Assembly: GCF_001984155.1 (NCBI RefSeq)
Contig: NZ_MTQO01000054.1
Span: forward strand, 1,240,001 to 1,304,000
DNA length: 64,000 bases
Source of the DNA: Actinosynnema sp. ALI-1.44
GTDB lineage: Bacteria > Actinomycetota > Actinomycetes > Mycobacteriales > Pseudonocardiaceae
Reading direction: 5' to 3'
How positions within the stretch are numbered: position 1 is the first letter of the stretch; each line of letters begins with the position of its first letter. The translations under genes and the position numbers were made by a program. Below the pieces are notes generated by a model. That model saw only the letters and a list, made by a program, of their open reading frames with translations, ran no database searches and was not told where the DNA came from. Below are positions 1 to 46,821 of this stretch, in pieces.

Positions 1-339
1 GCCCGCAAGGCCGATGTGGTGGCGTTCGGCGCGCACGCCGGTGATCACGCCGTCTACCCGGACTGCCGACCAGAGTTCGTCGAGCGGTTCACCCGGTCAG
101 TCCGCACCGCCAACGAGGGACTGCTGGTCGACGATTTCGAGATCCTCGCCCCGTTTCTCACCCAGAGCAAGACCGACATCGTCCGCATCGGCGCGGCACT
201 GGAGGTTCCGTTCGAGCGGACGTGGTCGTGCTACCGGGGCGAGGCGACGCACTGCGGGACATGCGGAACCTGCACCGAACGCAAGGAAGCGTTCCAACAG
301 AACGGCATGACCGACCCCACCAGCTACCGCTGCGCGTGA
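1..339 (+). CDS. queC: 7-cyano-7-deazaguanine synthase, C-terminal part
   Basis: This is the 3' end of a gene whose start lies before the window; reading frame 1 is open from base 1 to the TGA at 337-339. The residues are typical of the QueC C-terminus: an AGDHAVYPDCRPEF segment, then a zinc-site cluster CYRGEATHCGTCGTC followed by ERKEAF. QueC is an ATP-dependent enzyme that converts 7-carboxy-7-deazaguanine plus ammonia to preQ0, using an adenylated intermediate. It is the first visible gene of a long plus-strand operon and fits the queD/queE genes found 23 kb downstream. The N-terminal PP-loop cannot be seen. The family assignment is secure; whether the gene is complete is unknown. Confidence 0.93.
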   Translation, partial: ARKADVVAFGAHAGDHAVYPDCRPEFVERFTRSVRTANEGLLVDDFEILAPFLTQSKTDIVRIGAALEVPFERTWSCYRGEATHCGTCGTCTERKEAFQQNGMTDPTSYRCA

Positions 340-343
340 AGAG

Positions 344-1333
344 GTGACGACGATGACGGAGGCGGAACTCGGCTCACCGGCTGGGCCGGGGCGGGGCCGT
401 CGTTCCTCGCGCCACGGCTCGCGCGTGTCGGGTTGCGAACCGGTACAACGTGGCGAGGGGATCGTTCCTGCCGCCCAAGCACCCAGCACGGTAGCGCAGC
501 AGGCAGCAACCCCGCCAGCGCCCTCCACCTCCGGACCGCAGTCACACTCGCTGATGCCCCTGCTGGCTGAGCCGTACCTGCGTCGCGCGTTGCGCCAATG
601 CGGCCGGCGAACCTCAGCACCCGGTGCCGACGGCATGACCTGGGGCTACCTCCGCCGCGAGGCCCGCGTGATGCTGCCGCAACTGGCCATCGAACTCGCT
701 AGCGGGACGTGGCAGCCCGGACCTGTCCGCGACGTGCAGGTGCCCACCTACACCGGCAAACAAATGCACATGTTCATCCCCACCGTGCGGGATCGACTGG
801 TGCACCGCGCGCTGCGAAACGCCCTCGAACCGGTGCTGGAAGCGGGTGCCTTCCGCGATTGGGTGTCCGGATTCCGGCCGCGCCGCAACCGCATCACCTC
901 ACTGCGCCAGGCCGCCGTCTTCGATCAGGCGGGCTTCCGGTGGATAGCCGATCTCGACGTCGCCTCGGTATCAGAAGGCGCGACGATCGACGAAGTCATC
1001 GACTGGCTCGCCGAGCACATCCACGACGGCACTTTCTTGGCCCGCCTGCGCACCGCGCTCGCCGCGATGCCCAGTCCGATCGCGCCGGGCTCCGGCCTGG
1101 CGCCCATACTGATCAACCTCCGGTTGTCCCAAGTGGACAAGAGAGTGACCGGGCTGCGAGTCGTCCGCTTCGCCGACAACTATGTCGCCTTCGCCCGAAC
1201 CCGCGAGGACGCACAGGAGGCGTTCTACACCATCAGCGACGCACTCCTGCAGCTTCGACTGCGGCCCAACGAGGCCAAGAGCCGCATCCGCGAAGACGCC
1301 AACGTCGAAGACCTGTTCCTGATCGGCGGCTGA
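344..1333 (+). CDS. Reverse-transcriptase-like protein with altered catalytic motif
   Basis: A 329-aa protein built like the RT domain of group II intron maturases. Landmarks are APGADGMTWGYL (RT1), TVRDRLVHRAL and WVSGFRPRRN (RT2), WIADLDVASV (RT3, first Asp kept), PGSGLAPILINLRLSQVD (RT4) and LLQLRLRPNEAKSRI (RT6). The YxDD box reads FADN, so the second catalytic Asp is replaced by Asn. The protein stops at the RT7 position (LFLIGG), so there is no thumb/X or endonuclease domain. The first 60 residues are low-complexity. It starts 4 bp after queC, at GTG 344 or ATG 353, and ends 3 bp before the FGE-fold gene, so it is clearly an operon member and not an intron. DNA polymerase activity is doubtful; a domesticated or structural role is my inference. 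Confidence 0.8.
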   Translation: MTTMTEAELGSPAGPGRGRRSSRHGSRVSGCEPVQRGEGIVPAAQAPSTVAQQAATPPAPSTSGPQSHSLMPLLAEPYLRRALRQCGRRTSAPGADGMTWGYLRREARVMLPQLAIELASGTWQPGPVRDVQVPTYTGKQMHMFIPTVRDRLVHRALRNALEPVLEAGAFRDWVSGFRPRRNRITSLRQAAVFDQAGFRWIADLDVASVSEGATIDEVIDWLAEHIHDGTFLARLRTALAAMPSPIAPGSGLAPILINLRLSQVDKRVTGLRVVRFADNYVAFARTREDAQEAFYTISDALLQLRLRPNEAKSRIREDANVEDLFLIGG

Positions 1334-1336
1334 GGC

Positions 1337-1894
1337 ATGAACCTGGAATGGATCGAGGTCACCGGAGGAGTCTGCGCATTCGGGGACGCCGCGCGCCCTA
1401 TCCAGGTCCCGACCCTGTTGTGGACGCGCACCCCGATCGCCTACGGACACCTGCCGAGCGAACACCCTGACCTTGGACTGCGGTTCCCCGTCACCGAGAT
1501 CAGCCACGCCGAGGCGACCGAGATCGCCGGCCGATTGGGCGGGCGGTTGCCGCGCTCGGCGAAGTGGGAGTGGATGGCTGCCGGCACTGGCCGCCGACGC
1601 TGGCCATGGAGCAACGAACCGTGGCAACCGGCGTTCGCGAACCTCCGGGACTCCGGGCACGACACGGTCACCCCGGTCGACACGCATCCCGACGGCGCCA
1701 CGCCCGAGGGCATACTCGATGTCGCGGGCAACGTGTGGGAATGGACCGCCAACACCGCGATGAGCAACGGAGTCGTCATCCGTGGCGGTTCGTACGCCGC
1801 GCCACCGTTGTACGCGCAGTGCACGTTCCTCAACGCCGCGCCCGCTGAACTGCGCTCGCGCGGCATCGGCCTGCGGGTGGTGCGCGAACCATGA
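1337..1894 (+). CDS. Formylglycine-generating-enzyme (SUMF1/EgtB-like) fold protein
   Basis: A 185-aa protein with the C-type-lectin-like fold signature of the FGE-sulfatase family: EWMAAGTGRRRWPW, then DVAGNVWEWT, then VIRGGSYA, and a C-terminal GIGLRVVRE. It is shorter than catalytic FGE/EgtB enzymes (about 300 aa), and the usual N-terminal GG-F-MG segment is reduced to TGGVCAFGD. In diversity-generating retroelements this fold is a common variable target next to an RT gene, and here it directly follows an RT-like gene. I see no template repeat. It could instead be a small non-haem-iron-type enzyme of the pathway. Its stop overlaps the next start (ATGA). Confidence 0.75.
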   Translation: MNLEWIEVTGGVCAFGDAARPIQVPTLLWTRTPIAYGHLPSEHPDLGLRFPVTEISHAEATEIAGRLGGRLPRSAKWEWMAAGTGRRRWPWSNEPWQPAFANLRDSGHDTVTPVDTHPDGATPEGILDVAGNVWEWTANTAMSNGVVIRGGSYAAPPLYAQCTFLNAAPAELRSRGIGLRVVREP

Positions 1895-2379
1895 CCCTTC
1901 GGCCGCCCAGCACTCGCATCCTCTCACCCGAGCAGGGTTTGATCATCCTCAACTGTTCACGGGAGAAGCTCGTCACGAGCGTCCCCGTTGCTGCGCTTGA
2001 TCTCTACCAAGGTGCGTGCGTTCCGCTCGCGCGTGAACACTTCGCCGCCGATCCGGCTCGCCGAGCCCGCATCCGTATCCTCTCGGCCGCACACGGCCTG
2101 CTGCGACCCGAGAACGCGATCAGCACCTACGACCACCGGCTCACGAACAGGGTCGAAGCCATGCGCCTGCACGAGCGGACGGTCTCCGCGCAACTGGACG
2201 CCGAACTCGCCGAGACACCGTCATTGCGGCACATGCTGATCGTGGTCGAGCCGTTGTATCTGCTCGCCTTGCAGCGCGTGTTCGACCACCTTGACCGGTT
2301 TGATCAGATCGCGCTCATCCCGAACCCGTGGGGGTGGCCGGAAGGGTTGACCTACCTCCACCAATGGGGGTGGGCGTGA
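1891..2379 (+). CDS. DUF6884-like protein
   Basis: A 162-aa protein. Visible signature: LIILNCSREK near the N-terminus, ALDLYQGACVPLAREH, then RIRILSAAHGLLRPE and ISTYDHRL. This CS..K / LY.G / ILSA.HGLL / YD pattern matches, from memory, small proteins annotated DUF6884. That family has been noted around tgtA5-type (archaeosine/DpdA-like) transglycosylases, but its activity is not established. It is coupled to both neighbours by overlaps (ATGA upstream, GTGA downstream). The association with queC here supports a role in deazaguanine or base chemistry, which is inference. Confidence 0.6.
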   Translation: MTLRPPSTRILSPEQGLIILNCSREKLVTSVPVAALDLYQGACVPLAREHFAADPARRARIRILSAAHGLLRPENAISTYDHRLTNRVEAMRLHERTVSAQLDAELAETPSLRHMLIVVEPLYLLALQRVFDHLDRFDQIALIPNPWGWPEGLTYLHQWGWA

Positions 2380-3410
2380 CCACGATGTATGAGGAACTGT
2401 TGCGCCGCAACAATTTTCACACCAGCAGCACTCGCAGCTGGGAAGCCATATCCGGGATCGGGTGGCACGAGCCCACACCGTCGGAGCTGTCACTGGCCGC
2501 CGTGCGCACCCTTTCGGTCGTTGTCCCGGCCTACAACGTCAGCTACTGCCTGCCGGCCGTGCTCGACGCCCTGGAAGGCCAGCACCACCGGTACAGGTTC
2601 GAGGTCATCGTTGTCGACGACGCCAGCACCGACACCACGGCCGCCATCGCCGCCCAGCACCCGGTCGTCACCACGGTCCTGCGGCTGCCAGAACGCGCGG
2701 GCGGGGCCACCGCACGCAACCTCGGCACCGCGCTCGCGCGCGGGCAGACGGTGCTCTACCTCGACGCCGACATGGTCCTGCCCCCACACGTGATCACCGA
2801 CATCGCCGCCCGCGCCACCGACACCACCGTGCTCGTCGGGTTCCGCCACAACCTCCCCTACGACCTGCACCAGGGCGGACGCGGCGTCCCGGCCGACCAT
2901 CCCCACCTCGCCGCAGACCATCGAGTCGTGTGGCGGCCCCCGGTCGGCCGCCCGTTGCTCTATACCGGCATCACCCTGACCAAGCGCCTCGACGGCCGCC
3001 CGCTGGACCACACCCGCGACTTCGTCGATCTGGGCTATGGCCAGCGCTATGTCGACTGGGACCTGCCCCGCATGGTCGTCACCTGCCTCGTCGCCGTTCC
3101 ACGCGCCGCCGTCCTGAACGTCGGCGGGTTCGATCCCGAGTTCGGGCGGATCGGCTGGGGCTTGGAAGACACCTACCTTGGCGCGTGCCTGATCGCCGCC
3201 GGGCTGCTGGTGATCCCGCTGCGGCAGGTCGTTGGATTCCACCTCGATCCACCCGACGCCGACGAGCAATGGCAACGCAAGCTCGCCACCTGGCCCGACA
3301 CCCTCGCTCGCTACTGGGACCTGATGCGGCGGCCTGCCCCGGCCGGCCGCGCCTGCTCATTCACCGCCGCGATGACCGAGCTGCTGCGCACCTGCGAGGT
3401 ACTGCGATGA
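2376..3410 (+). CDS. Family 2 glycosyltransferase (GT-A fold)
   Basis: About 344 aa from GTG 2376, whose GTGA overlaps the preceding stop; ATG 2385 is an alternative. GT-A features in order: RTLSVVVPAYNVSYCLP, EVIVVDDASTDTT, ARNLGTALARG, and VLYLDADMVLP holding the DxD metal/nucleotide-sugar site. Near the C-terminus GGFDPEFGRIGWGLEDTYLG is the acceptor-side motif seen in chondroitin-synthase-type GT2 enzymes. No membrane helices are evident, so it should be a cytosolic sugar transferase. With the GT-B enzyme and PIG-L deacetylase of the same operon it implies a sugar attached to an operon product. The acceptor is unknown. Confidence 0.85.
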   Translation: MTTMYEELLRRNNFHTSSTRSWEAISGIGWHEPTPSELSLAAVRTLSVVVPAYNVSYCLPAVLDALEGQHHRYRFEVIVVDDASTDTTAAIAAQHPVVTTVLRLPERAGGATARNLGTALARGQTVLYLDADMVLPPHVITDIAARATDTTVLVGFRHNLPYDLHQGGRGVPADHPHLAADHRVVWRPPVGRPLLYTGITLTKRLDGRPLDHTRDFVDLGYGQRYVDWDLPRMVVTCLVAVPRAAVLNVGGFDPEFGRIGWGLEDTYLGACLIAAGLLVIPLRQVVGFHLDPPDADEQWQRKLATWPDTLARYWDLMRRPAPAGRACSFTAAMTELLRTCEVLR

Positions 3411-3490
3411 CCTCACCTGCACTAGCGACGGTTGCCAACACCGAATGCCGCCACGACGGCACTGACCAGAAAGAAGACGCTGCTCGATGA
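3407..3490 (+). CDS. Mini-ORF, 27 aa, coupled on both sides
   Basis: ATG 3407 overlaps the glycosyltransferase stop (ATGA), and its own TGA overlaps the next ATG at 3487. The peptide starts MTSPALATVANTECRHDG and is hydrophilic with one Cys. It may exist only to hand ribosomes from one gene to the next, or it may be a genuine small product. Two other 22-24-codon ORFs in this window have the same arrangement. Confidence 0.5.
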   Translation: MTSPALATVANTECRHDGTDQKEDAAR

Positions 3491-3801
3491 TCGACCCGAT
3501 CTCCCTCGCGGTGGGCGCTGGCCTGTTCGGCGCAGGGCTGCTGGTCGGCACACTGACCCGCCGCCAATCCGCCGCAGGCATCACCCCGAAACCGATCTGC
3601 GGCTGCTCGCACGGATTGGAACAGCACGACCCCGACACCAAGGAGTGCCACGGCCAGATCTTGCACAAGGACGCGCGCACCAAGGGCGGTTCCTGGATCG
3701 GCAACCAGTGGGTGCCCTGCACCTGCCGCCAGTACGTCGGCCCGAAGCCGTTCGAGGAGCTGTACGCCCCGCCGCTGCTGCCGCCGCAGGACATGCCATG
3801 A
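3487..3801 (+). CDS. Small membrane-anchored Cys-rich protein
   Basis: A 104-aa protein. Residues about 5-23 form one hydrophobic helix (ISLAVGAGLFGAGLLVG), so it is probably anchored in the membrane. A metal-site-like set follows: CGCSHGLEQH, then KECHGQILH, then WVPCTCRQYVG, giving four CxC cysteines plus Cys and His residues that could bind zinc. I do not know a named family; similar small proteins occur in actinobacterial mobile elements. It is joined by ATGA overlaps to the mini-ORF before and the radical SAM gene after. Confidence 0.65.
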   Translation: MIDPISLAVGAGLFGAGLLVGTLTRRQSAAGITPKPICGCSHGLEQHDPDTKECHGQILHKDARTKGGSWIGNQWVPCTCRQYVGPKPFEELYAPPLLPPQDMP

Positions 3802-4766
3802 CAGAGCCACGCATTGCCCCAACGCGCACTTTCGCGGCGCGCCCACACAGCACCGGGCTCGTCGTGCATGATCCGCTGACCGGGCTGACCCACCGCGCAG
3901 GGACCGAACTCGCCTCCGGCCGTGTCCGACTGTCGGACACCGACGTCGCCTCCTTGCCTGAGATCCACCCGGCAGCCATGCAGGCCGACGTGCCCATCAG
4001 CGTGTGCTGGTCGCCCCTGGTGCGCTGCAATCTCGCCTGTCCTCACTGCCTGGACGACAAGTCCGTGCCCGAACTGGCCCGGCCCGACCGCTACCGCATC
4101 GCGCACCTGCTCGCCGAGTCCGCGGTCCTGGGCGTGGACATCTCCGGTGGCGAACCGCTGCTGCTGCGCGAACTGCCCGTGCTGATCGACATCCTCGTCG
4201 CGGGCGGCAGCGCGGTCAGTGTCACCACCAACGGAACACACCTGGCCCGCCGCGCCGAAGCCCTCGCCGCCCGCGTGGACGCCGTCCGCATCAGCCTGGA
4301 CGGCCCGGACGCCGAACGCCACGACCACTGGCGCGGCACAGGCAGCTTCGATCGCGCCGTCGCCGGAATCCGCGCGGCGGTAGCCCACGGCATCCCGACC
4401 CAGATCCAGACCGTGCTCCTGCGCTCCACCGCGTGGGCCAGCGTCCGGCCGATGGTCGAGCTGGCAGCCGCGCTCGGCGTGTACGGGGTGACCTTCCTGC
4501 AGATGCTCCCCATCGGGGAAGGCGCCGTGCTGGCCGACGCCGAGCAGCTGACCGACGACGAGGCCACCGAACTCCTTGCCGAACTGAACACCACCTCGGC
4601 TGTACCCGTTCGCCTGCGCACTCGCGAGGCGGCCGGGGGTTTCACGGTGATCCGCGCCGACGGTCACGTGTGGCGCAACCAGCCGGACGCACACGCCATC
4701 AACTCCCTCCGCCCACTGCTCAGTATCAACGACCTCGCACTGACGGCACGGGACGGCTCGGCATGA
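3798..4766 (+). CDS. Radical SAM protein
   Basis: A 322-aa protein. RCNLACPHCLDD carries the CxxxCxxC site for a [4Fe-4S] cluster and SAM. VDISGGEPLLLREL is the GGEP SAM-binding motif; SVTTNGTHL and AVRISLDGPDAERHD are typical barrel strands. The C-terminal 60 residues lack Cys, so there is no SPASM auxiliary-cluster domain. The substrate cannot be read from sequence. In this operon it could modify the deazapurine or its sugar. Translation starts at ATG 3798 overlapping the previous TGA, and the stop overlaps the following 24-codon ORF. Confidence 0.88.
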   Translation: MTEPRIAPTRTFAARPHSTGLVVHDPLTGLTHRAGTELASGRVRLSDTDVASLPEIHPAAMQADVPISVCWSPLVRCNLACPHCLDDKSVPELARPDRYRIAHLLAESAVLGVDISGGEPLLLRELPVLIDILVAGGSAVSVTTNGTHLARRAEALAARVDAVRISLDGPDAERHDHWRGTGSFDRAVAGIRAAVAHGIPTQIQTVLLRSTAWASVRPMVELAAALGVYGVTFLQMLPIGEGAVLADAEQLTDDEATELLAELNTTSAVPVRLRTREAAGGFTVIRADGHVWRNQPDAHAINSLRPLLSINDLALTARDGSA

Positions 4767-4837
4767 ACGGCTCCTCGAACGGTCTCGGCGTAGTCCAGCG
4801 GCGGGCACGCACCGCGCCACGGGAGGCCAGGCGATGA
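4763..4837 (+). CDS. Mini-ORF, 24 aa, coupled on both sides
   Basis: ATG 4763 overlaps the radical SAM stop and its TGA overlaps ATG 4834 of the HTH gene. The peptide is basic (ends RRARTAPREARR). Same architecture as the ORFs at 3407 and 25574. A product is not proven; translational relay is the simplest reading. Confidence 0.45.
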   Translation: MNGSSNGLGVVQRRARTAPREARR

Positions 4838-5411
4838 ACACGCCCACGAGCGACCAACTCGACCGCTTCGCACGGGTGCTGGGCGACCAGCTGCGAACTG
4901 CGCGGAAGGAACGCGGCTGGACCCGCAACAGATGCGTGCCGAGATAGGCGCCGACGACGAAGACGAGGTATCCCTGCAAACCCTCGCCACCTACGAACTC
5001 GGCACACGCCGTATCTCCGTCGAGCGGCCGGTCGAACTGTGCCCTGTGCTGAAGCAGCGGCCGGACACGCTGTTGCTCCGCGCGACCACCCTCGCGTTCG
5101 GCAGTGATCACGACAGTCCAGTGACAGTTGACCCGTCGGCCCTCGCGCACACGACCGATCCCCGGCTGCAGCCTCTCCAGCGATGGGCCAGGGTCCGCGC
5201 CCGCCAGTGCCCAGGAGGACGAACGCCTGTCGAAGAACTCGACATCCACGCGCTGACCGCACTCGCCGGGATCGCCGGATCCACTGTGTACGACCTCGTG
5301 CAAGCCCTGCGTGATCTCCGAGGCGCTGAGGTCCCAGACCACCCCGCTGACGCGAATCCCTTGCTCCTCAACGAATGGACCTCGCATGACCAACACAAGC
5401 CGTGTTTTTGA
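4834..5411 (+). pseudogene. XRE-type HTH protein, frameshifted
   Basis: Two pieces of one protein lie in different frames. Frame 1 from ATG 4834 gives MNTPTSDQLDRFARVLG to RKERGWT and then runs into a TAG. Frame 3 from about 4920 gives QQMRAEIG, SLQTLATYELGTRRIS and continues to the TGA at 5411. Joined, they form an HTH domain (LRTARKERGWT.QQMRAEIG) followed by about 110 residues, like 160-190-aa XRE proteins of actinobacterial elements. The break lies near 4918-4925. It may be a real null allele, a sequence error, or less likely recoding. The downstream phosphoribosyltransferase start overlaps its end. Confidence 0.7.
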
Positions 5412-5949
5412 GCACCGCCAGATCTGGCGCTTGACTCCGAACGCCCTCCGCGAGGCCACCACGCTGCTGGCCGGCGCGATCCTGCGCGATCACCAGCCGG
5501 TCCAGCACGTCATCGGCATCGCCAACGGCGGCGTCGCGCCAGCCCGCATGATCGCCTCCACACTCGAGGTGAAAGCCCGCACGGTCCGCGCCCGCCACAA
5601 CACCGGCGACGCGACTTACCAGCAGGCCACAGGCAAGGTGACGGTCGACCTCGACCCGCTGACCCGCGCACTGAACGGTCAACGGATGAAAGGCAGGGTG
5701 CTGGTGGTGGACGACATCTGCGGCAGCGGAGCCACACTTCGGCGTCTCCGGCACGACCTCGCACCCTTGCTCAGCCCGAGCGCGACGATGCTGACCGCGG
5801 TCCTGTGCCTCAACACCGGGGCGGCCACGCTACCGGACTACTCGATCTGGACCGTCTCGGACTGGGTCGTCTTTCCCTGGGAGAAGCCGCCCGCCGACCA
5901 CGACACCACACCGCTGCCACGCCCGGAGGAGGTCCTCCGCCATGCCTAA
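5386..5949 (+). CDS. Phosphoribosyltransferase-family protein
   Basis: 187 aa from ATG 5386. The PRPP-binding loop is clear: VLVVDDICGSGATL preceded by hydrophobic residues. Near the N-terminus HVIGIANGGVAPARMIAS matches the GG.P substrate-side loop of type I PRTases, and FPWEKP at the end resembles xanthine/hypoxanthine PRTases. It could join a purine or 7-deazapurine base to PRPP, as a PRTase does in the toyocamycin pathway, or could be a salvage enzyme. It starts inside the end of the HTH gene and overlaps the GT-B gene by 8 bp. Confidence 0.8.
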   Translation: MTNTSRVFEHRQIWRLTPNALREATTLLAGAILRDHQPVQHVIGIANGGVAPARMIASTLEVKARTVRARHNTGDATYQQATGKVTVDLDPLTRALNGQRMKGRVLVVDDICGSGATLRRLRHDLAPLLSPSATMLTAVLCLNTGAATLPDYSIWTVSDWVVFPWEKPPADHDTTPLPRPEEVLRHA

Positions 5950-7063
5950 CCAACCCCCGTTGACCGTCGCGTTCGTCCTGGCCTCCTATACCCCGAACGC
6001 GCCAGCCGGGATCGAACGCGCCACCGCCGCCCTCGCCCACGGACTGCGCCAGCTCGGCCACCGCAGCCTCATCCTGACCGCCGCTCCGATCGACACCCCG
6101 GACGACAACGTGGTGAGAGTGTGCTCGGTGGGCGTCGATTTCCCCTGCGACGATGACGAATTGCGCGACGCGATCAGCACCCACGGGCAAGACGTCCTGC
6201 TCGCCGCCGAACTGTGCGAGCTGTACCGCAAGCACCGGGTCGACGTCGCCGTCTACACCGACGGCTTGTGGGGCCTCGGCCGAGCCGCGCCGGTCAGCCG
6301 GGCGCGCTCGGTACTGGCCATGCACGTCGTCGGCCACGACCAAGACCTCGCGCCCGCCCTCGAACGCTCCGATCTCGTGATCGCACCGTCCCAGACGGTG
6401 CTCGACCAGGCACACGATCGCGGCTACGACACCGACCATTGGCAGATCGTGCCCAACGCCCTGCTCCATGACCACGCACCACCACCCGAGTCACGACGGG
6501 AAGCGCTGCGACGGCACGGCCCGATCCGGATCCTGGCCCGGCTCGGACCGGAGAAGAACATCCGGACCTTGCTGGACGCCGGGCGCCTGGTCGACAGGAC
6601 AATCGAGGTGATCGTCGGCGAGGCCGGATTCGAGATCACCGCCGGCGGCCAGGCGACCGAACTTGACCAGTGCCGCTACTCGGCGGCCCACCTCAAACTC
6701 GGCACCATCCACGGCGACGCCCTCGGCTGGCTCCAGGTGCCGCCCTGGCTCGCACAGGCTGCGGTGGTCATCGTGCCCTCGCTGCGCGAGACCTTCGGAC
6801 TGGTCGCGCTCGAGGCCATGAGCGTCGGCACCCCGGTGATCGCCTTCGACGTGGGCAACCTGCCCACCTTGGTCGGCACCGGCGATGGAGCTGGCGGGGT
6901 GATCGTCCCCCGATCGGGGGGCGAGCACGGCCTCTGGCGCGCCGCCGAGCACCTGCTCGAAGATCCGCTACGCTACGCCGAACTATCCAGGGCTGCGTAC
7001 TACCGCTCGCGGGACTATCTGCCCACCACAGTCGCCGAGACATTCGTAAAGGCGGTGCGGTGA
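5942..7063 (+). CDS. GT-B glycosyltransferase (family 4 type)
   Basis: A 373-aa two-domain transferase. The N-terminal half has AFVLASYTPNAPAGIERA, the glycine loop of GT-B folds. The C-terminal half has ILARLGPEKNIRTLLDA (GPEKN) and ETFGLVALEAM, the E-x7-E motif, then GTPVIAFDVGNLPTLV. GT4 enzymes usually transfer from UDP- or GDP-sugars with retention. With PIG-L downstream, a GlcNAc-transfer-then-deacetylation pair, as in mycothiol biosynthesis, is an attractive inference. The stop TGA and the next ATG overlap in TGATG at 7061-7065. Confidence 0.87.
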   Translation: MPNQPPLTVAFVLASYTPNAPAGIERATAALAHGLRQLGHRSLILTAAPIDTPDDNVVRVCSVGVDFPCDDDELRDAISTHGQDVLLAAELCELYRKHRVDVAVYTDGLWGLGRAAPVSRARSVLAMHVVGHDQDLAPALERSDLVIAPSQTVLDQAHDRGYDTDHWQIVPNALLHDHAPPPESRREALRRHGPIRILARLGPEKNIRTLLDAGRLVDRTIEVIVGEAGFEITAGGQATELDQCRYSAAHLKLGTIHGDALGWLQVPPWLAQAAVVIVPSLRETFGLVALEAMSVGTPVIAFDVGNLPTLVGTGDGAGGVIVPRSGGEHGLWRAAEHLLEDPLRYAELSRAAYYRSRDYLPTTVAETFVKAVR

Positions 7064-7920
7064 TGCCTGCTGGCGTCCCTCTGCTCCTGGTTGACGGTCA
7101 CAACCTCCTCTGGCGCGCGGCCTTCGGATTCCCCGCCGCGATCCTCTCCCGCGACAAGGCCCGCGACCTGACCGCGGAGTTCGGGTTCTTCGCCCTCCTG
7201 CGCGTCGCCATCCGCGAAGAACTGCCTGAGCCACCCGAAGTGCTCGTGGTATTCGACGGCGAACACGGCGCCACCGAGCGCAAGGACAGCGACGCCGACT
7301 ACAAAGCCAACCGCGTCCTCGACGAAGCCGCGCTCAAACCCTTGCGCGCGATCCCGCACGTCCAGCGGGCACTGACCGACTACGGCATCGCCTGGATCGA
7401 GATCGACACCGCCGAAGCCGACGACGTGATCGCCACCCTCGTCAAGGTCACCCGTAACCAGGCACCCGAGCGGCAGGTGCGGATCATGTCCGGCGATCGC
7501 GACTTTTACCAACTCGTCGACGACCGGGTCCACGCGCTCAACACCGTAATGAAACGTGGCCGACGACACATCGGCCCGGCCGAGGTCGTCGAACGCTACG
7601 GCGTCACACCGGACCAGTGGCCCGACTTCTGCGCGCTGAAGGGCGACTCCGCCGACAACATCCCAGGGGTGAAGGGAATCGGTGAAGGCACGGCAACCAA
7701 GCTCCTGGCCGGCGGGCTGCACCTCGACCAGCTTCTCGCCTCCGGACGGCTGACTGGGGCGAAGAAGACCAAAGTCATCGACGCCTGGGAGCAGGTGCTC
7801 GCCTGGCGCGACCTCATCCGGATGCGCACCGACCTCGACCTCCCACACCACCCGACCGGCCACCCCACGCGCGAGCTGCCCAAGCCGGCCGACGTCATCG
7901 AGAAGCTCGGGCTCTGGTGA
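7063..7920 (+). CDS. FEN/PolI-type 5'-3' exonuclease
   Basis: A 285-aa protein equal to a free-standing 5'-nuclease domain. Motifs: LLLVDGHNLLWRAAFGFP, VLVVFDGEHGATERK, TAEADDVIATLV, IMSGDRDFYQLVDD (carboxylate metal ligands) and the H3TH segment CALKGDSADNIPGVKGIGE. The family cleaves 5' flaps and degrades from 5' ends, using two metals. A nuclease is unexpected in a sugar/base pathway. It suggests action on nucleic acid, such as modification-linked processing or element maintenance. Coupled by overlaps to both neighbours (ATG 7063 and GTGA at 7917). Confidence 0.9.
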   Translation: MPAGVPLLLVDGHNLLWRAAFGFPAAILSRDKARDLTAEFGFFALLRVAIREELPEPPEVLVVFDGEHGATERKDSDADYKANRVLDEAALKPLRAIPHVQRALTDYGIAWIEIDTAEADDVIATLVKVTRNQAPERQVRIMSGDRDFYQLVDDRVHALNTVMKRGRRHIGPAEVVERYGVTPDQWPDFCALKGDSADNIPGVKGIGEGTATKLLAGGLHLDQLLASGRLTGAKKTKVIDAWEQVLAWRDLIRMRTDLDLPHHPTGHPTRELPKPADVIEKLGLW

Positions 7921-8549
7921 CTGCTTCGCCGTTCACCGCTCCGGCGTCGGTGCTGACCGTGATGGCACACCCCGACGACGCCGAACTCTGGGCGGGTGGA
8001 ACCCTCGCCCGTTGTTCCGCCTCCGCGGCCGCCGTCACCATCGCGATCCCGCACCACTCCGACCCAGTGCGGGATGCCGAAGCAGCGGCCGGAGCGGCGA
8101 TCCTGGGGGCCAGGCTGTACCAGTACGACCAACCCACCGTGACGGCCCTGCGCGAACTGCTGCTCGCCGTCCGACCCGAGATCGTCATTACCCACCCCCT
8201 CCGCGACATTCACCCCGACCACCGGAATCTCGCTGAAACACTCGTCGCCGCCCTGCCTGACGTCGTCATCGCCACCGGCCACCCACGCCGCGTCTACACC
8301 GCCGACACCTACAACAGCCTCACCGCCGACGGCCCCGTACCCGCACACACCACCATCGACATCACCGACACCTACGAGATCAAGAAACGCGCGCTCGCGG
8401 CCCACACATCGCAGCCGATCAGCGACCACTTCGGTCCCATGGCCGAGACCCTCGCCCGGCTATGGGGCTCCCGAATCGGCGTGCGTTACGCGGAGAACTT
8501 CGTACCGGTGCCCATCCTCGGTCGCCTCCCGGCGGCATCGACATTGTGA
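7917..8549 (+). CDS. PIG-L family deacetylase
   Basis: 210 aa from GTG 7917 overlapping the nuclease TGA. VMAHPDDAELWAGG holds the zinc-binding AHPDD(A/E) motif, and ITHPLRDIHPDHRN holds the second His pair. The family removes acetyl from GlcNAc conjugates (mycothiol MshB, bacillithiol, teicoplanin-type deacetylases). It is the last gene of the operon. About 95 bp downstream a divergent-looking but same-strand regulator begins. Confidence 0.9.
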   Translation: MTASPFTAPASVLTVMAHPDDAELWAGGTLARCSASAAAVTIAIPHHSDPVRDAEAAAGAAILGARLYQYDQPTVTALRELLLAVRPEIVITHPLRDIHPDHRNLAETLVAALPDVVIATGHPRRVYTADTYNSLTADGPVPAHTTIDITDTYEIKKRALAAHTSQPISDHFGPMAETLARLWGSRIGVRYAENFVPVPILGRLPAASTL

Positions 8550-8645
8550 CCAGGCTCCGACCGGGGGGTTCCATGCAACCCCTGTGACCTGCGCATACGT
8601 GAGATGTCGGTACGATGCGCCGATGACTGACGGGGTGGTCTGCTG

Positions 8646-10037
8646 ATGGGCGGGTCGGTGAGTCCGCTGGCCGCGTACCGCCTGGCCGCTGGCTTCACGC
8701 AGGAGAGCCTCGCCGAGCAGCTGAGTATCGACCGCGGCACCATCGGCCGTTGGGAACGGGGTACCCAAGTACCCCAGCCATGGCAACGACCGGACCTCGC
8801 GACGAGCCTGCGGATCTCCCTCGCTGAACTCGACGACATCCTGCACCGGACGAAACACCAGACCGACTCCAGGTCTGCCATCCCGACGTCGAGCAAGTCC
8901 GCTTCAGCGGACGTACGGCGCAGCCAGCAGGAGTGGCTCCGCGTGCGGAACGCGCCAGGGGTGCGAGGTCGCGAGCTGACCGAGCTGGCGGCCTGGCTCT
9001 ATCCGGAATCACAACGGGCACCTGGCGGCCACGTGCTCGCAGGCTCCGGCTGGCTGCTTGAGCAGCCAGTTCCCTTGGAATCGGTGCGGCTGGTGTGGTC
9101 GGACCAGCAGCGGCCGACTCGCCCGTTGGGATCGTTGGAGCACGTCCTTCCGCTGACCGAGCGGGGCGAGCTGTACGCGGGCTACAGCCGAGCGGTGCGC
9201 GACCTCGTCCGACCACGGCTGTTGGAGAACCGGCTGAGCTACCGGCTACTTGGCCTGCAGTCCGATCACGGACTGGCCCTGAGCTTCGGGACCACCACCT
9301 TCTTCGAGGTATTCGACATCAAGCAAGCCCTCGCGCACGAGTTCAAGGCCGCATGGCTGGCCTCGAACCGCTCAGTGCCTGACTGGAACGACCTTCCTCT
9401 GCGCGCGGCGATCGGTGACCCTTTCGACCCTCAGCAGCTGCTGATGTCGCCGGGGATCAGCACGCTGACCATCCGGCGTGACAGGTCGGACGGTCAGCAC
9501 CAGTTCGTGCTGCACGAGCGCGACGGCGGAAAGGTCGCGGACGGCGGCGGCCTGTGCCACGTGATGCCAGCCGGTGAATTCCAGCCGTCCTCGGTCGATC
9601 TGGCCGACGTGCGCAACGACTTCTCGTTGTGGCGCAACATCATGCGCGAGTTCTCCGAGGAGTTCCTCGGAAACCCCGAGCACGACGGCTCTACCTCCCG
9701 ACCGATCGACTACGCATACGAGGAGCCCTTCCGATCATTCGATCGAGCACGCGCCGAGGGTGGGCTTCGACTCTGGCACTACGGCCTGGCGATGGAGCCC
9801 TTGGAGCTCGGGGCCGTCCAGATGACCGTGGCCGTGGTCGACGACGTGGTATTCGACCGATTGTTCGCCGACCTTGTGGACATCAACGACGAGGGACGGG
9901 TGATCGGCCGCGGCGGGCGAACCGACATGCCGTTCACTGTGGAGGCCATCGACCGGCTTGGCCCCCGGTTGTCAGCCAGTGCACTCACCTTGCTCCGCTT
10001 GGGCTGGCGTGATCGAGAACAGCTACTGGGTGATTGA
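8646..10037 (+). CDS. HTH regulator fused to a Nudix-like domain
   Basis: 463 aa. Residues about 7-75 are an XRE HTH (LAAYRLAAGFTQESLAEQL, GTIGRWERGTQVP). The rest is a long sensor domain with a Nudix-like core near residues 300-345: GGLCHVMPAGEFQP followed by REFSEEFLG, which matches the REUxEExGU half of the Nudix box. Such XRE proteins occur in actinomycetes without known ligands. A nucleotide or nucleotide-sugar ligand for a regulator of the adjacent operon is inference. Its first 60 residues resemble the HTH at 21015-21623, so the two HTH regions are related. Confidence 0.75.
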   Translation: MGGSVSPLAAYRLAAGFTQESLAEQLSIDRGTIGRWERGTQVPQPWQRPDLATSLRISLAELDDILHRTKHQTDSRSAIPTSSKSASADVRRSQQEWLRVRNAPGVRGRELTELAAWLYPESQRAPGGHVLAGSGWLLEQPVPLESVRLVWSDQQRPTRPLGSLEHVLPLTERGELYAGYSRAVRDLVRPRLLENRLSYRLLGLQSDHGLALSFGTTTFFEVFDIKQALAHEFKAAWLASNRSVPDWNDLPLRAAIGDPFDPQQLLMSPGISTLTIRRDRSDGQHQFVLHERDGGKVADGGGLCHVMPAGEFQPSSVDLADVRNDFSLWRNIMREFSEEFLGNPEHDGSTSRPIDYAYEEPFRSFDRARAEGGLRLWHYGLAMEPLELGAVQMTVAVVDDVVFDRLFADLVDINDEGRVIGRGGRTDMPFTVEAIDRLGPRLSASALTLLRLGWRDREQLLGD

Positions 10038-17524: not shown

Positions 17525-18169
17525 ATGGTCAGCGCGGTGGTGTTCGACGTGGGTGAGACTCTGCTGGACGATTCACGTGAGTGGCGTGCGTGGGCCGACT
17601 GGGTGGGGGTGTCTCCTCATACGTTTTCGACCGTGCTCGGCGCTGTGACGGCGGCGGGCCGGGACAACGCCGAGACGTTCGAGTACTTCCGCCCCGGCTT
17701 TGACTTGGCCCGTGAGCGACAGTTGCGGGAGGAGGCCGGGCGCGGGGAGCAGATCGACGACAGCGATCTGTACTCGGACGTACGGCCCAGCCTGGCGGCC
17801 CTCCGCGCGGGAGGTTTGTGGGTCGGTGTCGCCGGCAACCAGACCCCGCGAGCTGCTCAGTTGCTGCGGGCATTGGACTTGCCCGTGGACTACGTCGGCA
17901 CGTCCGGCGAATGGGGTGTGGCGAAGCCGAACCCCGGCTTCTTCGAACGGGTCGTCGGGGTCGCACCTGGCGCGGCCGACCAGATCGTGTATGTCGGTGA
18001 CCACCGCGACAACGACGTGCTGCCCGCGAAGGCGGCCGGTCTCCGTGCCGCGTTGATCCGGCGTGGCCCATGGGGGTACCTCTGGGCCGACGACCCGGTG
18101 GTGAGGGATAGCGCCGATTGGGTGATCGACTCGCTCGCCGAGCTGCCCGCCCTTCTGCTTGATCGGTAG
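17525..18169 (+). CDS. HAD-superfamily hydrolase
   Basis: 214 aa from ATG 17525. AVVFDVGETLLDD is motif I (DxGxT variant of the nucleophile site), VAGNQTPRAAQLL motif II, GVAKPNPGFFERVV motif III Lys, and VYVGDHRDNDVLPAKAAG motif IV. Belongs with small phosphatases of the HAD subfamily I type. Substrate unknown. It ends 11 bp before the convergent regulator on the other strand; a long upstream open frame belongs to the methyltransferase remnant. Confidence 0.87.
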   Translation: MVSAVVFDVGETLLDDSREWRAWADWVGVSPHTFSTVLGAVTAAGRDNAETFEYFRPGFDLARERQLREEAGRGEQIDDSDLYSDVRPSLAALRAGGLWVGVAGNQTPRAAQLLRALDLPVDYVGTSGEWGVAKPNPGFFERVVGVAPGAADQIVYVGDHRDNDVLPAKAAGLRAALIRRGPWGYLWADDPVVRDSADWVIDSLAELPALLLDR

Positions 18170-23771: not shown

Positions 23772-24335
23772 ATGCACGGCACGGCGACAACCGAACACGC
23801 CACCGCCTACCCGGCGAACCTCGTGACGGATGGTCCCGCGCCGACAGCCCACCAGATCGCCATCGAGCACACCTTCGAAACCGCGCACCGCCTGCCACAC
23901 CTGGGAGGCAAGTGCACCAGCCTGCACGGACATTCCTGGCGGGTCGCGGTGTCGGTGATCGCCCCGACCCTGAGCGACGATGTCACCGTCGTGGAGTTCG
24001 GCGCCCTCAAAGCCGGAGTCCGGCAATGGATGGACACCCACCTCGATCACGGCACCATGCTCGGCGTGCACGACCCGCTCGCTGCGCACCTTCTCGCAGC
24101 GAAATGCAAAGTCTTCCGCTTCGGCGCTAATGGCAACGAGACGGTCAAGGATCCCGAGCTGCTGGCCACCGATTTGGCCTGGCCGACAGTCGAAGCTGTC
24201 GCGGTGTTGCTGCGTCGTGTGAGCCAGGCCGTTCTCGCCGCACTGCCCTGCGCCCCCGATGCACGTATCGGCCAGGTATTCGTGCGCGAAACCCATCTCA
24301 ACACCGCGACCTACGGGCCGGTGGACGCACCGTGA
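23772..24335 (+). CDS. queD: 6-carboxy-5,6,7,8-tetrahydropterin synthase
   Basis: 187 aa from ATG 23772. HTFETAHRLPHLGGKCTSLHGHSW contains, in its last part, the QueD pattern Cys-x3-His-Gly-His with the zinc-binding His residues and the catalytic Cys. THLDHGTML supplies the second catalytic His/Asp region and VRETHLNTATY the conserved Glu near the C-terminus. QueD converts dihydroneopterin triphosphate to 6-carboxy-tetrahydropterin, the second step to preQ0. The first about 25 residues are an extension. GTGA overlap with queE shows coupling. Confidence 0.93.
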   Translation: MHGTATTEHATAYPANLVTDGPAPTAHQIAIEHTFETAHRLPHLGGKCTSLHGHSWRVAVSVIAPTLSDDVTVVEFGALKAGVRQWMDTHLDHGTMLGVHDPLAAHLLAAKCKVFRFGANGNETVKDPELLATDLAWPTVEAVAVLLRRVSQAVLAALPCAPDARIGQVFVRETHLNTATYGPVDAP

Positions 24336-25054
24336 AGCTACCCGCTATGTCCGATATGGACCAGTACGTTGTCGTCGACGAAACGTTCGGCCCGACCTTC
24401 CAAGGCGAGGGATCGAGCGCCGGTCGCTACGCGCATTTCATCCGACTGTTCGGCTGCCGCCTGTCGTGCGCCTGGTGTGACAGCCCGCAAACCCATGACG
24501 CCACTCGCTGCGACGTCGCTGCCGAACAGCGAATCCTCTCGATCGAGGACGTTACGTCCTGGCTCGCCGCCGATCCGGCCGGCCTGCTGGTCATCACGGG
24601 CGGTGAACCACTGCTGCAGCCGCACGTCGTGGGGCGGTTGCTATGCGCGATCCGCGAGCGTGCGTTGGCCACCGACATCGAGATCGAGACATCCGGCGCC
24701 ATCGCGCCGGCGGACATGATCACCTCGGCGGTAACACGGTTCAACGTCTCGCCGAAGCTCGCGCATTCGGGCCTGCGTCGCCATCAACGCATCCGCCCCG
24801 CAGTGCTGCGTGGCTTCGCCGACAGCGGGAAAGCCATCTGGAAATTCGTCGTCCAAGAGCTTGACGACCTCGACGAGATCCAGGACCTAGTCGACACCTA
24901 CGGCCTTCACCCGGTCTGGGTCATGCCGGAGGGCACGGACAGCGCCACCGTCCTGGCGCGGATGCGGATGCTGGCCGATCCGGTGCTGGCACGCCGCTGG
25001 CACCTGTCGACCCGGCTCCACACACTGCTGTGGGAGAACGACCGTGGCCGCTGA
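24332..25054 (+). CDS. queE: 7-carboxy-7-deazaguanine synthase
   Basis: 240 aa from GTG 24332 overlapping the queD stop. ETFGPTFQGEGSSAGRYA is the QueE start; LFGCRLSCAWCDSPQTHD carries the radical SAM cysteines; VITGGEPLLQ is the GGEP motif; IEIETSGAIAP and FNVSPKLAHSG are family signatures. It performs the SAM-dependent ring contraction from carboxytetrahydropterin to CDG. With queD and queC it gives all steps after FolE. Confidence 0.95.
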   Translation: MKLPAMSDMDQYVVVDETFGPTFQGEGSSAGRYAHFIRLFGCRLSCAWCDSPQTHDATRCDVAAEQRILSIEDVTSWLAADPAGLLVITGGEPLLQPHVVGRLLCAIRERALATDIEIETSGAIAPADMITSAVTRFNVSPKLAHSGLRRHQRIRPAVLRGFADSGKAIWKFVVQELDDLDEIQDLVDTYGLHPVWVMPEGTDSATVLARMRMLADPVLARRWHLSTRLHTLLWENDRGR

Positions 25055-45085: not shown

Positions 45086-45396
45086 GGCGTGCGGTTGGCA
45101 TGTCGGCTGGCGCGCTATGGACTTCATCGAACCTTGGCATGTGCCGGTAAGAGAGTATATTGAAAGGATGGCGATCTGTCTGTCCATAGGGGATGGATTG
45201 GTGCTTGGTCCGTTTCACACTCCGTGGGGATGGAGGAAATCTGGAGAACTGATGTGCGTTGAACGGCGTTGAAGAGCGCTCAACGGCGGTGAACGGTACC
45301 GGTTTGTGCTGGGGTTTCTTGGTTTCTGCTGGTGACGGTCCTTTTTGGACCCTGGCAGTGTGGGGGTCAGGGGTTCGAATCCCCTCAGCTCCACAG
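45086..45396 (+). repeat. Long direct repeat, left copy
   Basis: About 311 bp nearly identical to 61137-61450, from GCGTGCGGTTGGCATGTCGG to the att core at the end. It includes GGCATGTGCCGGTAAGAGAG and GGAGGAAATCTGGAGAACTG. It is the right end of an integrated element of the same family as the one ending at 61450. A more diverged relative precedes the middle att at 49487. Confidence 0.9.
45352..45396 (+). other. att copy 1: tmRNA/tRNA-like 3' end
   Basis: GGGGTCAGGGGTTCGAAT followed by CCCCTCAGCTCCAC: a T-arm (CAGGGGTTCGAATCCCCT) and the acceptor end. The end CAGCTCCAC suits tmRNA (ssrA), whose 5' end GGGGCTGA would pair with it. No 5' half is present, so this is an attachment-site copy, not a working gene. 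The integrase gene ends inside it. Confidence 0.8.
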
Positions 45397-46821
45397 TTGA
45401 TCAATGCCCTTCGATCGTGGCGGATTGCCTGGTCGGAGGGCTTTTCTGATGCGGTCGATGATCGGGACTCGATGGCTTTGGTGTCCATCTCGGTGCACTG
45501 ATATGGAGGAATTCGGGAGGACGTTCGCCTCCTGAATTTGTGCCCTCCCGCGCCGTTGAGTGGTCGGGAGCTGCGGTCGACTCTTTCTGGTGGTGCGTCG
45601 TCGGGTGGTGCGCTGCGCGGGAGCCGTGTGGGGTGCAGTGGTCGGTCGGCGGTGTGGACGGTTATCGGTCGGCCGGCGCTTCTGCTGGATTTGTGGTTGG
45701 TGGGCTTGGTGCCAGCGTTGTTCGAGGCCTCGCAGGAGGCGGGTTTCGATTTCGGGTGCGACGTGGCTGTAGACCTCTACCAGCCTGTTGGCGAGGTGGT
45801 GGCCGAGTCGTTTGGCTTGGGCGATTTCAAGGATGTCGTCGGCGATGAGCCAGGTTTTGTGGCTGTGTCGTAGCCCATGGAAGGTCAGTCCCGGCCGGAC
45901 AGGATCCAGGCCATGGCGGGCGTCGCCGTCGACGGAGGGCCGGAAGACCCTGCGGTCGAAGGTACTGCGGCGCAGCCGACAGCCGAGGGGACTGGTGAAC
46001 ACGAACGAGCCAGGAGCGACCGCGAGGTAGTCGCGGAGCAGAGTGATGAGGAACGGCGGCAGCGTGACCGTGCGTGCGGAGGCGGGTGTCTTGGGTGGGC
46101 CGAGCCAAAGGCGGCTGGCGGACTCATGCAACGCCCCGGTGTCCGGGTCGATGGTGAGGACACCGCGGTCGAGGTCGAGGTGGTCGCGTTGCAGTCCGGC
46201 GAGTTCGCCCCAGCGGCAGCCGGTCCAGGCGGCGGTGATGACGAGCAGTCCGGCGGAGGGGCCGCCGCGCATGGTGGCTTGTTCGGCGATGCGGATGACG
46301 TGTTCGGGCATGGCCCAGACACGTTCGGCTGTGGTGGGTGCGTGGTCGCGGCGGCGGCCTCGTCGCCGGTGGCGGCGGACCGGGTTGGTGGGTATGAGGC
46401 GTTCGTCGACGGCGTCGTCGAGCATCGTTGAGAACACGGTGCGGATGCTGGCGATGGTGGAGGCGGCGTAGCGGCGGCGCAGTTCTTTCCACCACTCTGT
46501 GACCGCGAGCGAGGTGATGTCGCCGAGGGCGGTGGTGCCCCAGCGGGGGAGGATCTGTCGGCGGAGGTATCTGCGGTAGTTCTCTTCGGTCCGTGGCTCA
46601 ACATCAAGTGTCTCGATCCAGATGGTGGCCCAGTCGGCGAGTGGTTTCTTGGCTCCGGCGGGGTCGAGCCAGGTGCCACGACGTCGGTCGGTGTCCATGT
46701 CCTGTGCGTAGTCTTCGGCAGCTTTCTTGGTGTGGAAGCCTGATTCTGATCCGTAGGTGCCGTCATCGCGTAGGTAGCGGACGCGCCACGAGTTCTTGCC
46801 GGTCTGCTCGATCCAGGCCAT
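45385..46821 (-). CDS. int: Tyrosine-recombinase integrase
   Basis: 478 aa from the ATG at 46821 (MAWIEQTGKNSWRVRYLRDD); earlier starts at 46857 and 46899 exist. An Arm-binding N-terminal part and a SAM-like core (TIASIRTVFSTMLDDAVDE) precede the catalytic domain: WTGCRWGELAGLQ (Arg), LTFHGLRHSHKTWL (His-x-x-Arg), HHLANRLVEVYSHV (Tyr). A 110-residue basic tail runs into the att core. Position beside att 1 is standard for an element integrated at an RNA gene 3' end. All catalytic residues are present. Confidence 0.93.
   Translation of the reverse strand: MAWIEQTGKNSWRVRYLRDDGTYGSESGFHTKKAAEDYAQDMDTDRRRGTWLDPAGAKKPLADWATIWIETLDVEPRTEENYRRYLRRQILPRWGTTALGDITSLAVTEWWKELRRRYAASTIASIRTVFSTMLDDAVDERLIPTNPVRRHRRRGRRRDHAPTTAERVWAMPEHVIRIAEQATMRGGPSAGLLVITAAWTGCRWGELAGLQRDHLDLDRGVLTIDPDTGALHESASRLWLGPPKTPASARTVTLPPFLITLLRDYLAVAPGSFVFTSPLGCRLRRSTFDRRVFRPSVDGDARHGLDPVRPGLTFHGLRHSHKTWLIADDILEIAQAKRLGHHLANRLVEVYSHVAPEIETRLLRGLEQRWHQAHQPQIQQKRRPTDNRPHRRPTTAPHTAPAQRTTRRRTTRKSRPQLPTTQRRGRAQIQEANVLPNSSISVHRDGHQSHRVPIIDRIRKALRPGNPPRSKGIDQLWS

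Follow-up and report, generated by a model that had tools for sequence, protein, structure and literature searches.

Several described systems share parts of their gene content with the operon studied here, which lies at the start of a 64,000-nucleotide stretch (the window, G000:C51:1240001-1304000) of the 11.7 Mb genome of Actinosynnema sp. ALI-1.44 and combines genes for preQ0 synthesis and for sugar and phosphoribosyl tailoring with a reverse transcriptase (RT), a FEN-type nuclease and a conserved structured nucleic-acid element. The toyocamycin, tubercidin and huimycin clusters share with it the preQ0 genes, the actinobacterial hosts and either a phosphoribosyl pyrophosphate (PRPP) transferase (ToyH/TubE) or an N-acetylglucosamine (GlcNAc) glycosyltransferase (HuiG). 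However, the excerpted descriptions of these clusters contain no RT, FEN nuclease, DUF6884 protein, radical SAM tailoring gene, PIG-L protein or structured element, and the tubercidin cluster has an MFS transporter, of which there is none among the 10 proteins scanned here. The dpd islands, as described in excerpt, are also mobile and carry preQ0 genes and a DUF6884 protein (the DpdC family), but they differ in their helicases and their DndB-like and PLD-type parts, whereas our operon has sugar and phosphoribosyl tailoring, an RT and a FEN nuclease, and no TGT or DpdA was found.

On the nucleic acid side, the RT shares its fold and profile with those of group II introns and their group II-like (G2L) relatives, GsI-IIC being the best solved match, and domestication outside an intron has a parallel in G2L4. 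Those enzymes have a YADD motif; the RT described here has FADN and a set of operon partners, lacks both the thumb and the maturase domain, and is flanked by no intron RNA that could be recognised. Retrons and defence-associated RT (DRT) systems provide a further comparison. As in those systems, there are phage-borne copies, and the RT is kept together with a specific structured element that is a candidate for a dedicated RNA, but in our case the Drt4 match is far below its cut-off, the element lies inside a coding frame and about 10 metabolic genes are attached. Finally, the GT4 and PIG-L genes recall the MshA/MshB and BshA/BshB pairs, suggesting GlcNAc addition and then deacetylation, although all matches here fall below curated cut-offs and the acceptor would presumably be a deazaguanine nucleoside. 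Further background comes from PMC11701544, PMC7439116, PMC6112128, PMC4244168, PMC13279940, PMC11996544 and PMC12337344.

The separate families are known, but their combination with the element matches no known kind that we tested, and word searches of open-licence papers, which do not prove absence from print, found no description of the operon or the element. We tentatively favour a reading in which a free glycosylated 7-deazaguanine nucleotide works with the module of RT, structured element and FEN nuclease, probably in conflict involving mobile elements or phages.

Gene order and preQ0 chemistry

The operon genes are packed tightly, many ends overlapping, in the order queC, RT, FGE, DUF6884, GT2, small protein, radical SAM, helix-turn-helix (HTH) regulator, phosphoribosyltransferase (PRTase), GT4, exonuclease and PIG-L. 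The features of the window, with profile bit scores, are as follows.

1-339, plus strand: 3' end of queC (PF06508, 218.5 bits at G000:C51:1239674-1240303); all five canonical QueC motifs tested are present
344-1333, plus strand: RT open reading frame (ORF) with a thumbless, group II-type conserved core (259 aa, starting at about 554) and FADN as motif C (PF00078, 47.5 bits)
383-497, no strand assigned: conserved structured nucleic-acid element of about 115 nt with P1 (10 bp), P2, P3 and P4, in frame within the 5' end of the RT ORF
1337-1894, plus strand: FGE-sulfatase-fold protein, 185 aa (PF03781, 63.4 bits)
1891-2379, plus strand: DUF6884 (DpdC/YaaA-related) protein with CxxxK and LSAxxG (PF21818, 40.7 bits, cut-off 30)
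2328-3410, plus strand: GT2 glycosyltransferase, gene caller's start at 2364 (PF00535, 86.9 bits)
3487-3801, plus strand: small Cys-containing protein P0005, with a hydrophobic stretch at the N-terminus and confined to close relatives
3798-4766, plus strand: radical SAM protein, MoaA-like (PF04055, 67.6 bits)
about 4834-5411, plus strand: HTH regulator, frame-broken here; intact copies of 165-179 aa in loci L037, L039 and L058
5386-5949, plus strand: purine-type PRTase (PF00156, 49.9 bits)
5942-7063, plus strand: GT4 glycosyltransferase, MshA/BshA-like (PF13692, 78.3 bits)
7063-7920, plus strand: 5'-3' exonuclease / FEN-type nuclease (PF02739, 125.3 bits; PF01367, 71.4 bits)
7917-8549, plus strand: PIG-L deacetylase, BshB1-like (PF02585, 45.7 bits)
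8646-10037, plus strand: HTH regulator that adjoins the operon in close relatives (PF13560)
23772-24335, plus strand: queD (PTPS), displaced from the operon here (PF01242, 74.5 bits; tblastn)
24356-25054, plus strand: queE, displaced from the operon here (51% over 230 aa against the queE of L074)

The order queC-(queD-queE)-RT-FGE-DUF6884-GT2-radical SAM-PRTase-GT4-exonuclease-PIG-L recurs across the Actinomycetota and is retained over a range of about 34-97% protein identity between loci. Across 34 locus rows, the RT and DUF6884 genes are present in all, queC in 33, the PRTase, GT4 and PIG-L genes in 32 each, the exonuclease in 31 and FGE in 30. These rows are not all independent, as some are near-identical, some come from the same genome and some are cut by contig ends, and at least two of the FGE absences are gene-calling misses, since tblastn finds FGE in L046 and L048, which cover the L062 and L070 loci. 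Loci L036-L051 keep the same order with some losses: L043 is without the radical SAM, PRTase and GT4 genes, and the L048 sequence breaks off once GT4 has begun. P0005, which matched no family in the Pfam and NCBIfam scans, belongs to a gene cluster (c26) found in six of the 34 rows. A genome-wide scan gave 27 named loci, in Pseudonocardiaceae genera, Micromonospora, Nocardiopsis, Kitasatospora, Streptomyces, Actinocatenispora and an actinobacterial metagenome-assembled genome. When 200 genomes of the family were searched with the RT, 19 matched at E 1e-20, comprising 15 (the window genome included) with RT orthologues of at least 61% identity, partial pieces apart, and four at only 30-36%. As none of the seven other listed genomes of the same genus gave an RT match, the distribution is patchy.

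This comparison supports the view that the gene set forms one functional unit. An earlier note, made from the letters of the window, had described a mixed deazaguanine operon and had taken its tight overlaps as the mark of a single unit; the genes that it named are present and tightly packed, with the RVT_1, FGE-sulfatase, DUF6884, GT2, radical SAM, PRTase, GT4, exonuclease and PIG-L domains each above the Pfam cut-off, and the comparison of gene order that it proposed across actinobacteria finds queC kept with the RT, FGE and glycosyltransferase genes. Its chain of about 14 ORFs headed by queC needs trimming: queC does come first (the ORF starts at L004:14575, upstream of the window edge, which cuts it), but we count about 12 genes, one of them the broken HTH gene. 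That note had also regarded QueD, QueE and QueC as established. All three are in the window, but in this strain queD and queE lie outside the operon, displaced to 23.8-25.1 kb, some 15 kb away, and the radical SAM protein at 3798-4766 is set apart from QueE by its best NCBIfam profile, MoaA, with a weaker viperin match, and by the presence of a separate queE. The CxxxCxxC cysteines of this protein are invariant in 11 of 11 sequences.

In other loci the preQ0 genes are closer together. L073-L077 and L079 have queC, queD, queE and the PRTase gene in one cluster, with queD and queE between queC and the RT, and folE (cluster c31) occurs in five of the 34 rows (L008, L074, L076, L077 and L079). Judged by this gene content, the preQ0 pathway is part of the cluster. 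The canonical QueC motifs listed in the excerpted PMC13329287 are SGGxDS, YxQxHxxE, VPxRN, YPDC and the CxnCxxCxxC zinc motif; in the window queC the zinc spacing is x7, against x8 in that source. All five are present in 28 of 33 rows, the incomplete ones being L008 and L079 (VPxRN), L066 (three motifs) and L073 and L080 (short gene calls). Elsewhere in the genome of the window, a second locus, L006 (G000:C32), has homologues of queC, queD, queE and folE and is perhaps a different 7-deazapurine pathway.

A TGT-family gene (PF01702) was found in none of 18 carrier genomes or records, with controls positive in 14 of 14; Embleya is represented here by a plasmid record only, the record from a virus is possibly fragmentary, and the 90%/5% quality mark is reached by 10 of the carriers. 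With no such gene found in these carriers, preQ0 probably enters the nucleotide as a free base through the PRTase. The same result bears on the suggestion in the earlier note of a DNA or RNA hypermodification, which for the known transglycosylase route finds no support: queuosine or dpd modification by that route is unlikely. We regard as improbable the wider proposal of a dpd-like or queuosine-like system that places 7-deazaguanine in DNA or tRNA and glycosylates it there. The canonical QueC would suit such a system, as would DUF6884, which the excerpted preprint PMC11888242 gives as a domain of DpdC in dpd islands and which has a weak match to the PADLOC DpdC model (E 4.5e-4), but no other dpd part was matched among the PADLOC matches listed at E <= 0.01 for 10 window proteins. 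Proteins of the QueC family also serve in Qat and type IV CBASS, and a defence system based on protein deazaguanylation could be imagined; this seems very improbable, as QueC here is canonical, including motifs absent from QatC (PMC13329287, in excerpt), and no Cap10-like TGT-family protein was found in the 18 carriers. Cap9 retains much of the canonical QueC signature, so the motifs alone do not exclude the CBASS type.

The best NCBIfam match of the PRTase is xanthine PRTase, below the cut-off, and the DDI.G.GAT (PRPP) loop is kept in 11 sequences. GT4 matches MshA at 53 bits and PIG-L matches BshB1 at 60.5 bits, both below the cut-off, and together they suggest a hexosamine. The earlier note's glycosylated 7-deazapurine, as a putative product, is supported as far as the gene content for preQ0 and for sugar and phosphoribosyl tailoring goes. 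In the window, the DUF6884 motifs read CSREK and LSAAHG; across 19 sequences the Cys and Lys are at least 90% conserved and the Ser and Gly invariant, and CxxxK with LSAxxG is the putative active site according to the excerpted Pfam paper. In the exonuclease, D11, D65, E118, D120, D121, D145, D147, D195 and D198 are invariant in 12 of 12 sequences, acidic positions that we take to correspond to the T5/Pol I FEN active site. The FGE-fold protein has a modest predicted model (pLDDT 72.8) that overlaps weakly with FGE, EgtB, ToxD and CalU17 (TMq about 0.5-0.66, root-mean-square deviation about 8-10 A). An active-site Cys pair marks catalytic FGE; in the alignment of this protein only one Cys, C13, is nearly invariant.

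The reverse transcriptase and the structured element

The best solved matches of the RT core are GsI-IIC and other group II RTs (PDB profile 6ar1, E 1.3e-37), and its predicted model (pLDDT 87.0) gives a Foldseek TMq of 0.85 to 7k9y. The core ends before the thumb, and the group II profile TIGR04416 is matched only to position 253 of 353 (126.6 bits against a cut-off of 300). No intron family was among the Rfam matches up to E 5 in window positions 1-9000. Motif C is xxDN in 40 of 41 rows, with FADD in L051; polymerases with GDN motifs exist. In the profile alignment the two Phe that follow the motif-A Asp of GsI-IIC stand opposite small residues of this RT, positions that may be analogous to an RT steric gate. 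Drt4 is matched at 24.5 bits against a cut-off of 450, and in PADLOC the best match is a generic RT model, with DRT models at 2e-7 or weaker. In eight of eight pairs the dN/dS of the core is 0.13-0.21 (dS 0.47-0.87), and this strong purifying selection means that the RT protein matters. By profile and predicted model, the RT is a reduced group II-type fold under purifying selection.

Since the RT adjoins an FGE-fold protein in most rows, and RTs of diversity-generating retroelements (DGRs) appear beside those of DRT9 and retrons among the Foldseek matches, one could suppose that it diversifies its neighbour; DGR targets include FGE and C-type-lectin-type folds (PMC7159879, in excerpt). We consider this scarcely credible and have rejected it. 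Window positions 1-5000 contain no template/variable repeat pair, only six two-copy families of 26-35 nt at 71-84%, and the FGE alignment has no hypervariable stretch, with dN/dS of 0.13-0.36.

The first 70 codons of the RT ORF (344-553), which the earlier note had read as the N-terminus of the RT, vary in a manner unlike protein and hold the structured element that it missed. Over the first 60 or so codons the rates at the three codon positions are flat (e.g. 0.36/0.37/0.37), and from codon 80 third positions are the most variable (e.g. 0.16/0.08/0.53). Positions 383-497 can be aligned across 29 loci (28 distinct; alignment A3), with a consensus structure of 28 base pairs. Standard pairs make up 88.4%, compared with 79.0% in shuffled alignments and 34-42% in slid ones, the structure having an advantage over the slid versions because it was derived from the same alignment. 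Furthermore, the covariation score is 0.278 against 0.127 shuffled, and 84 cells are changed on both sides against 30 shuffled. The model of the element (R1), built without Embleya, matches the Embleya locus at E 2e-10 between folE and FGE, so that there it lies upstream of FGE and not of the RT. Among the 200 family genomes R1 matched 16, the 15 with RT orthologues and G029; the last, considered as an element without a cluster, proved to be a remnant in decay, its queC broken and its RT truncated. In a 396-genome sample of the phylum with stricter filters it matched the window genome and none of the 395 others, and three Rfam scans gave weak matches below gathering scores, or none. By these comparative criteria, we have shown a portable, conserved element of predicted structure that has no convincing Rfam counterpart. 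Together with the RT fold and the invariant residues of the exonuclease, it supports the earlier suggestion of work on nucleic acid.

The element is, on the evidence of its frame, also translated. The RT frame is free of stops in 29 of 29 loci from the start of the element to the conserved HSLM, the distances between the two have eight lengths that are all multiples of three, and the other sense frames carry stops in 28 and 20 of the 29 loci; in Embleya the corresponding frame is open into FGE. A coding-only N-terminus is nevertheless ruled out, though the frame stays open, by the flat codon-position rates and by low dS (0.17-0.49, with dN/dS of 0.33-0.99), which is below that of the RT core in all eight pairs.

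Which strand folds can be approached through the mismatches. On the sense strand P1 has 25 A.C and 0 G.U pairs and P4 has 25 and 3; on the complement, where A.C becomes a G.U wobble, P1 is 99.6% and P4 96.4% paired. P3 is neutral, with four of each. Four sequences outside the model (L008, L080, L103 and L104) give seven A.C and no G.U in P1 and P4 together. The consensus energy is -33.6 for the antisense strand and -20.9 for the sense strand, and the mean z is -1.51 and -0.81, antisense being lower in 22 of 29 sequences, higher in five and equal in two at the printed decimal. These counts come from cells that share ancestry, and the coding sense strand could bias which mismatches survive. They are no more than suggestive of a folded antisense strand, in which case the molecule would be antisense RNA or cDNA of the operon mRNA. 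Just 3' of P1 there is an invariant A-nnn-TA (A3 columns 106-111), the minus-strand sequence of which, TAnnnT, resembles a -10 box. We do not claim an antisense promoter from it, as the scan of positions 250-750 was negative and the spacing would cut into P1.

The element might instead be a cis-regulator only, either a translated 5' structure bound by the RT for autocontrol or a switch that senses a metabolite ahead of the tailoring genes. DIVa, which lies where the ORF of a group II maturase begins, is bound by the maturase itself, and the position of the element is compatible with such a role: it lies in the 5' coding region just behind a start codon that overlaps or follows the upstream stop, the frame is preserved as described, and in Embleya it is again in frame, upstream of FGE. 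However, the better pairing of P1 and P4 on the antisense strand is unexpected for a sense mRNA switch, and no terminator-like site was found at positions 250-750. We consider regulation alone to be rather unlikely.

Mobility and competing readings

The cluster, carried by soil actinobacteria, is mobile: it occurs on islands, on a plasmid of Embleya and twice in phage surroundings. One of the latter is in Kitasatospora sp. MBT63 (L076), where the operon and its flanking regulators lie between genes for phage scaffold, major capsid and minor capsid proteins and those for connector and tail-tube proteins. The arrangement is repeated on a 66,868-base IMG/VR contig (L104), with a capsid protein 92.7% identical to that of L076 and operon DNA about 80% identical, and in L077 the operon is followed by a phage integrase. 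A stretch of 20,948 bp is 99.99% identical in Amycolatopsis tucumanensis, A. echigonensis and Prauserella flavalba (L067, L068 and L072), which is either very recent transfer or mixed assemblies. Similarly, 8.7 kb are 99.8% identical between two genera, a frame-broken copy in Saccharomonospora sp. CUA-673 (L053/L078) and Sciscionella marina (L056/L036), both with an integrase-core transposase ORF (cluster c39) upstream.

Annotated phages gave no carrier, the 18 matching records all being below 60% identity, and the viral collections gave no match to a Pseudonocardiaceae-weighted alignment, the patterns of which are unsuited to the distant type; a second scan picked up L104, at 87%, together with 19 loci at 25-33%. 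The element DNA pattern was found in no viral contig, and megablast of window positions 300-8560 gave no match among plasmids.

On the 5.7 Mb plasmid of Embleya sp. NBC_00888 the cluster is rearranged, in the order queC, queD, queE, DUF6884, PIG-L, WbqC, folE, element, FGE, GT4, RT, a second GT4-type gene, exonuclease and a nucleoside 2-deoxyribosyltransferase-like gene.

Three further observations concern the surroundings. In many loci of the Pseudonocardiaceae (L004 1-9101; L039, L044, L060, L066, L071 and others) the operon is preceded by genes for a T2SSE ATPase and pilus-assembly-like proteins. At window positions 45385-48498 a phage-type integrase and ORFs resembling parts of insertion-sequence transposases point to a mobile region downstream. 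An ARAGORN call of tRNA-Val (gac) at 18055-18147, inside a predicted HAD-like ORF (17633-18169), is probably a false positive or an attachment-site remnant.

The main rival to the favoured reading is an ordinary, if new, biosynthetic cluster whose product would be a secreted antibiotic like toyocamycin, tubercidin or huimycin, namely a 7-deazaguanine nucleoside bearing an aminosugar, with the RT and exonuclease serving in self-protection or as recruited tailoring enzymes. This is possible, though we would not call it likely. The preQ0 genes and PRTase recall toyocamycin and tubercidin, and N-acetylglucosamine transfer recalls huimycin, as excerpted; GT4 and PIG-L resemble MshA/MshB and BshA/BshB; genes for a DegT aminotransferase, a GFO/IDH/MocA protein and a methyltransferase (clusters c29, c25 and c30) follow 3' of PIG-L in some loci, in six of the 34 rows each; and two of the FGE-fold structure matches, ToxD and CalU17, come from natural-product pathways. 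However, Pfam finds no transporter among the 10 scanned window proteins, the rearranged Embleya locus keeps the RT, exonuclease, DUF6884 and element while the GT2, radical SAM tailoring and PRTase genes were not found there, and such a cluster would not usually be expected between phage head and connector/tail genes, where two copies lie. The retention of RT, nuclease and element, the phage settings and the lack of a transporter in the 10 proteins together modestly favour an intracellular nucleotide and RT system over a secreted antibiotic.

The favoured system would consist of two modules. In the first, FolE, QueD, QueE and QueC would make preQ0, going by gene content, and the PRTase would convert it to a free nucleotide, a role that the nucleoside 2-deoxyribosyltransferase-like protein may take in Embleya. 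Family membership suggests that DUF6884 probably acts on the nitrile, that GT2 and GT4 add an N-acetylhexosamine which PIG-L deacetylates, and that the radical SAM and FGE-fold proteins perform further chemistry. The second module would comprise the thumbless group II-type RT, the FEN-type exonuclease and the element, some 115 nt long and placed in the 5' coding part of the RT (of FGE in Embleya). The RT may bind the element as a ribonucleoprotein, with the element serving as template or as primer, and an antisense cDNA might be left as the folded, functional strand; the modified deazaguanine nucleotide would be the substrate or payload of the RT reaction, and the exonuclease would trim or release the product. 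The likely benefit would lie in conflict between phages or mobile elements. The product chemistry, the RT activity and the connection between the modules are all inferred.

Several points weigh against this reading. With FADN as motif C and no thumb, the RT may not polymerise, and the genes not detected in the Embleya locus count here as well. Two of the five measures of conserved pairing are weak: 14 pairs have a double change against 10.8 shuffled, a figure reached by 15 of 500 shuffles, and the 29 further pair types are no excess over 29.3 (327 of 500 shuffles). Single sequences do not fold consistently better than shuffles (z from -2.03 to 0.09 in the seven tested, 0.31 and 0.09 for the window), and the minimum-energy fold of the window differs from the consensus fold. 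P2 runs opposite to the antisense preference, with 14 G.U and 2 A.C, and a scan of positions 250-750 on both strands found no promoter.

A more specific form of the two-module system is, in our judgement, decidedly unlikely. In this form the RT would write the glycosylated 7-deazaguanine nucleotide into a short nucleic acid on the element, with the antisense cDNA as the folded product; tailoring would take place there and the FEN nuclease would release or trim it, either in biosynthesis scaffolded on nucleic acid or to arm the cell with a modified cDNA against mobile elements and phages.

If the two modules do cooperate, this would be the first known case of a bacterial RT and structured nucleic-acid element linked with modified-nucleotide synthesis, in a genus-hopping, phage-borne cluster. 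It would open to test both the purpose of preQ0 in genomes without a transglycosylase and the function of domesticated group II-type RTs whose active sites are altered. Even if the nucleoside-antibiotic alternative were correct, the operon would represent a widespread, uncharacterised type of 7-deazapurine cluster, together with a new conserved structured element.

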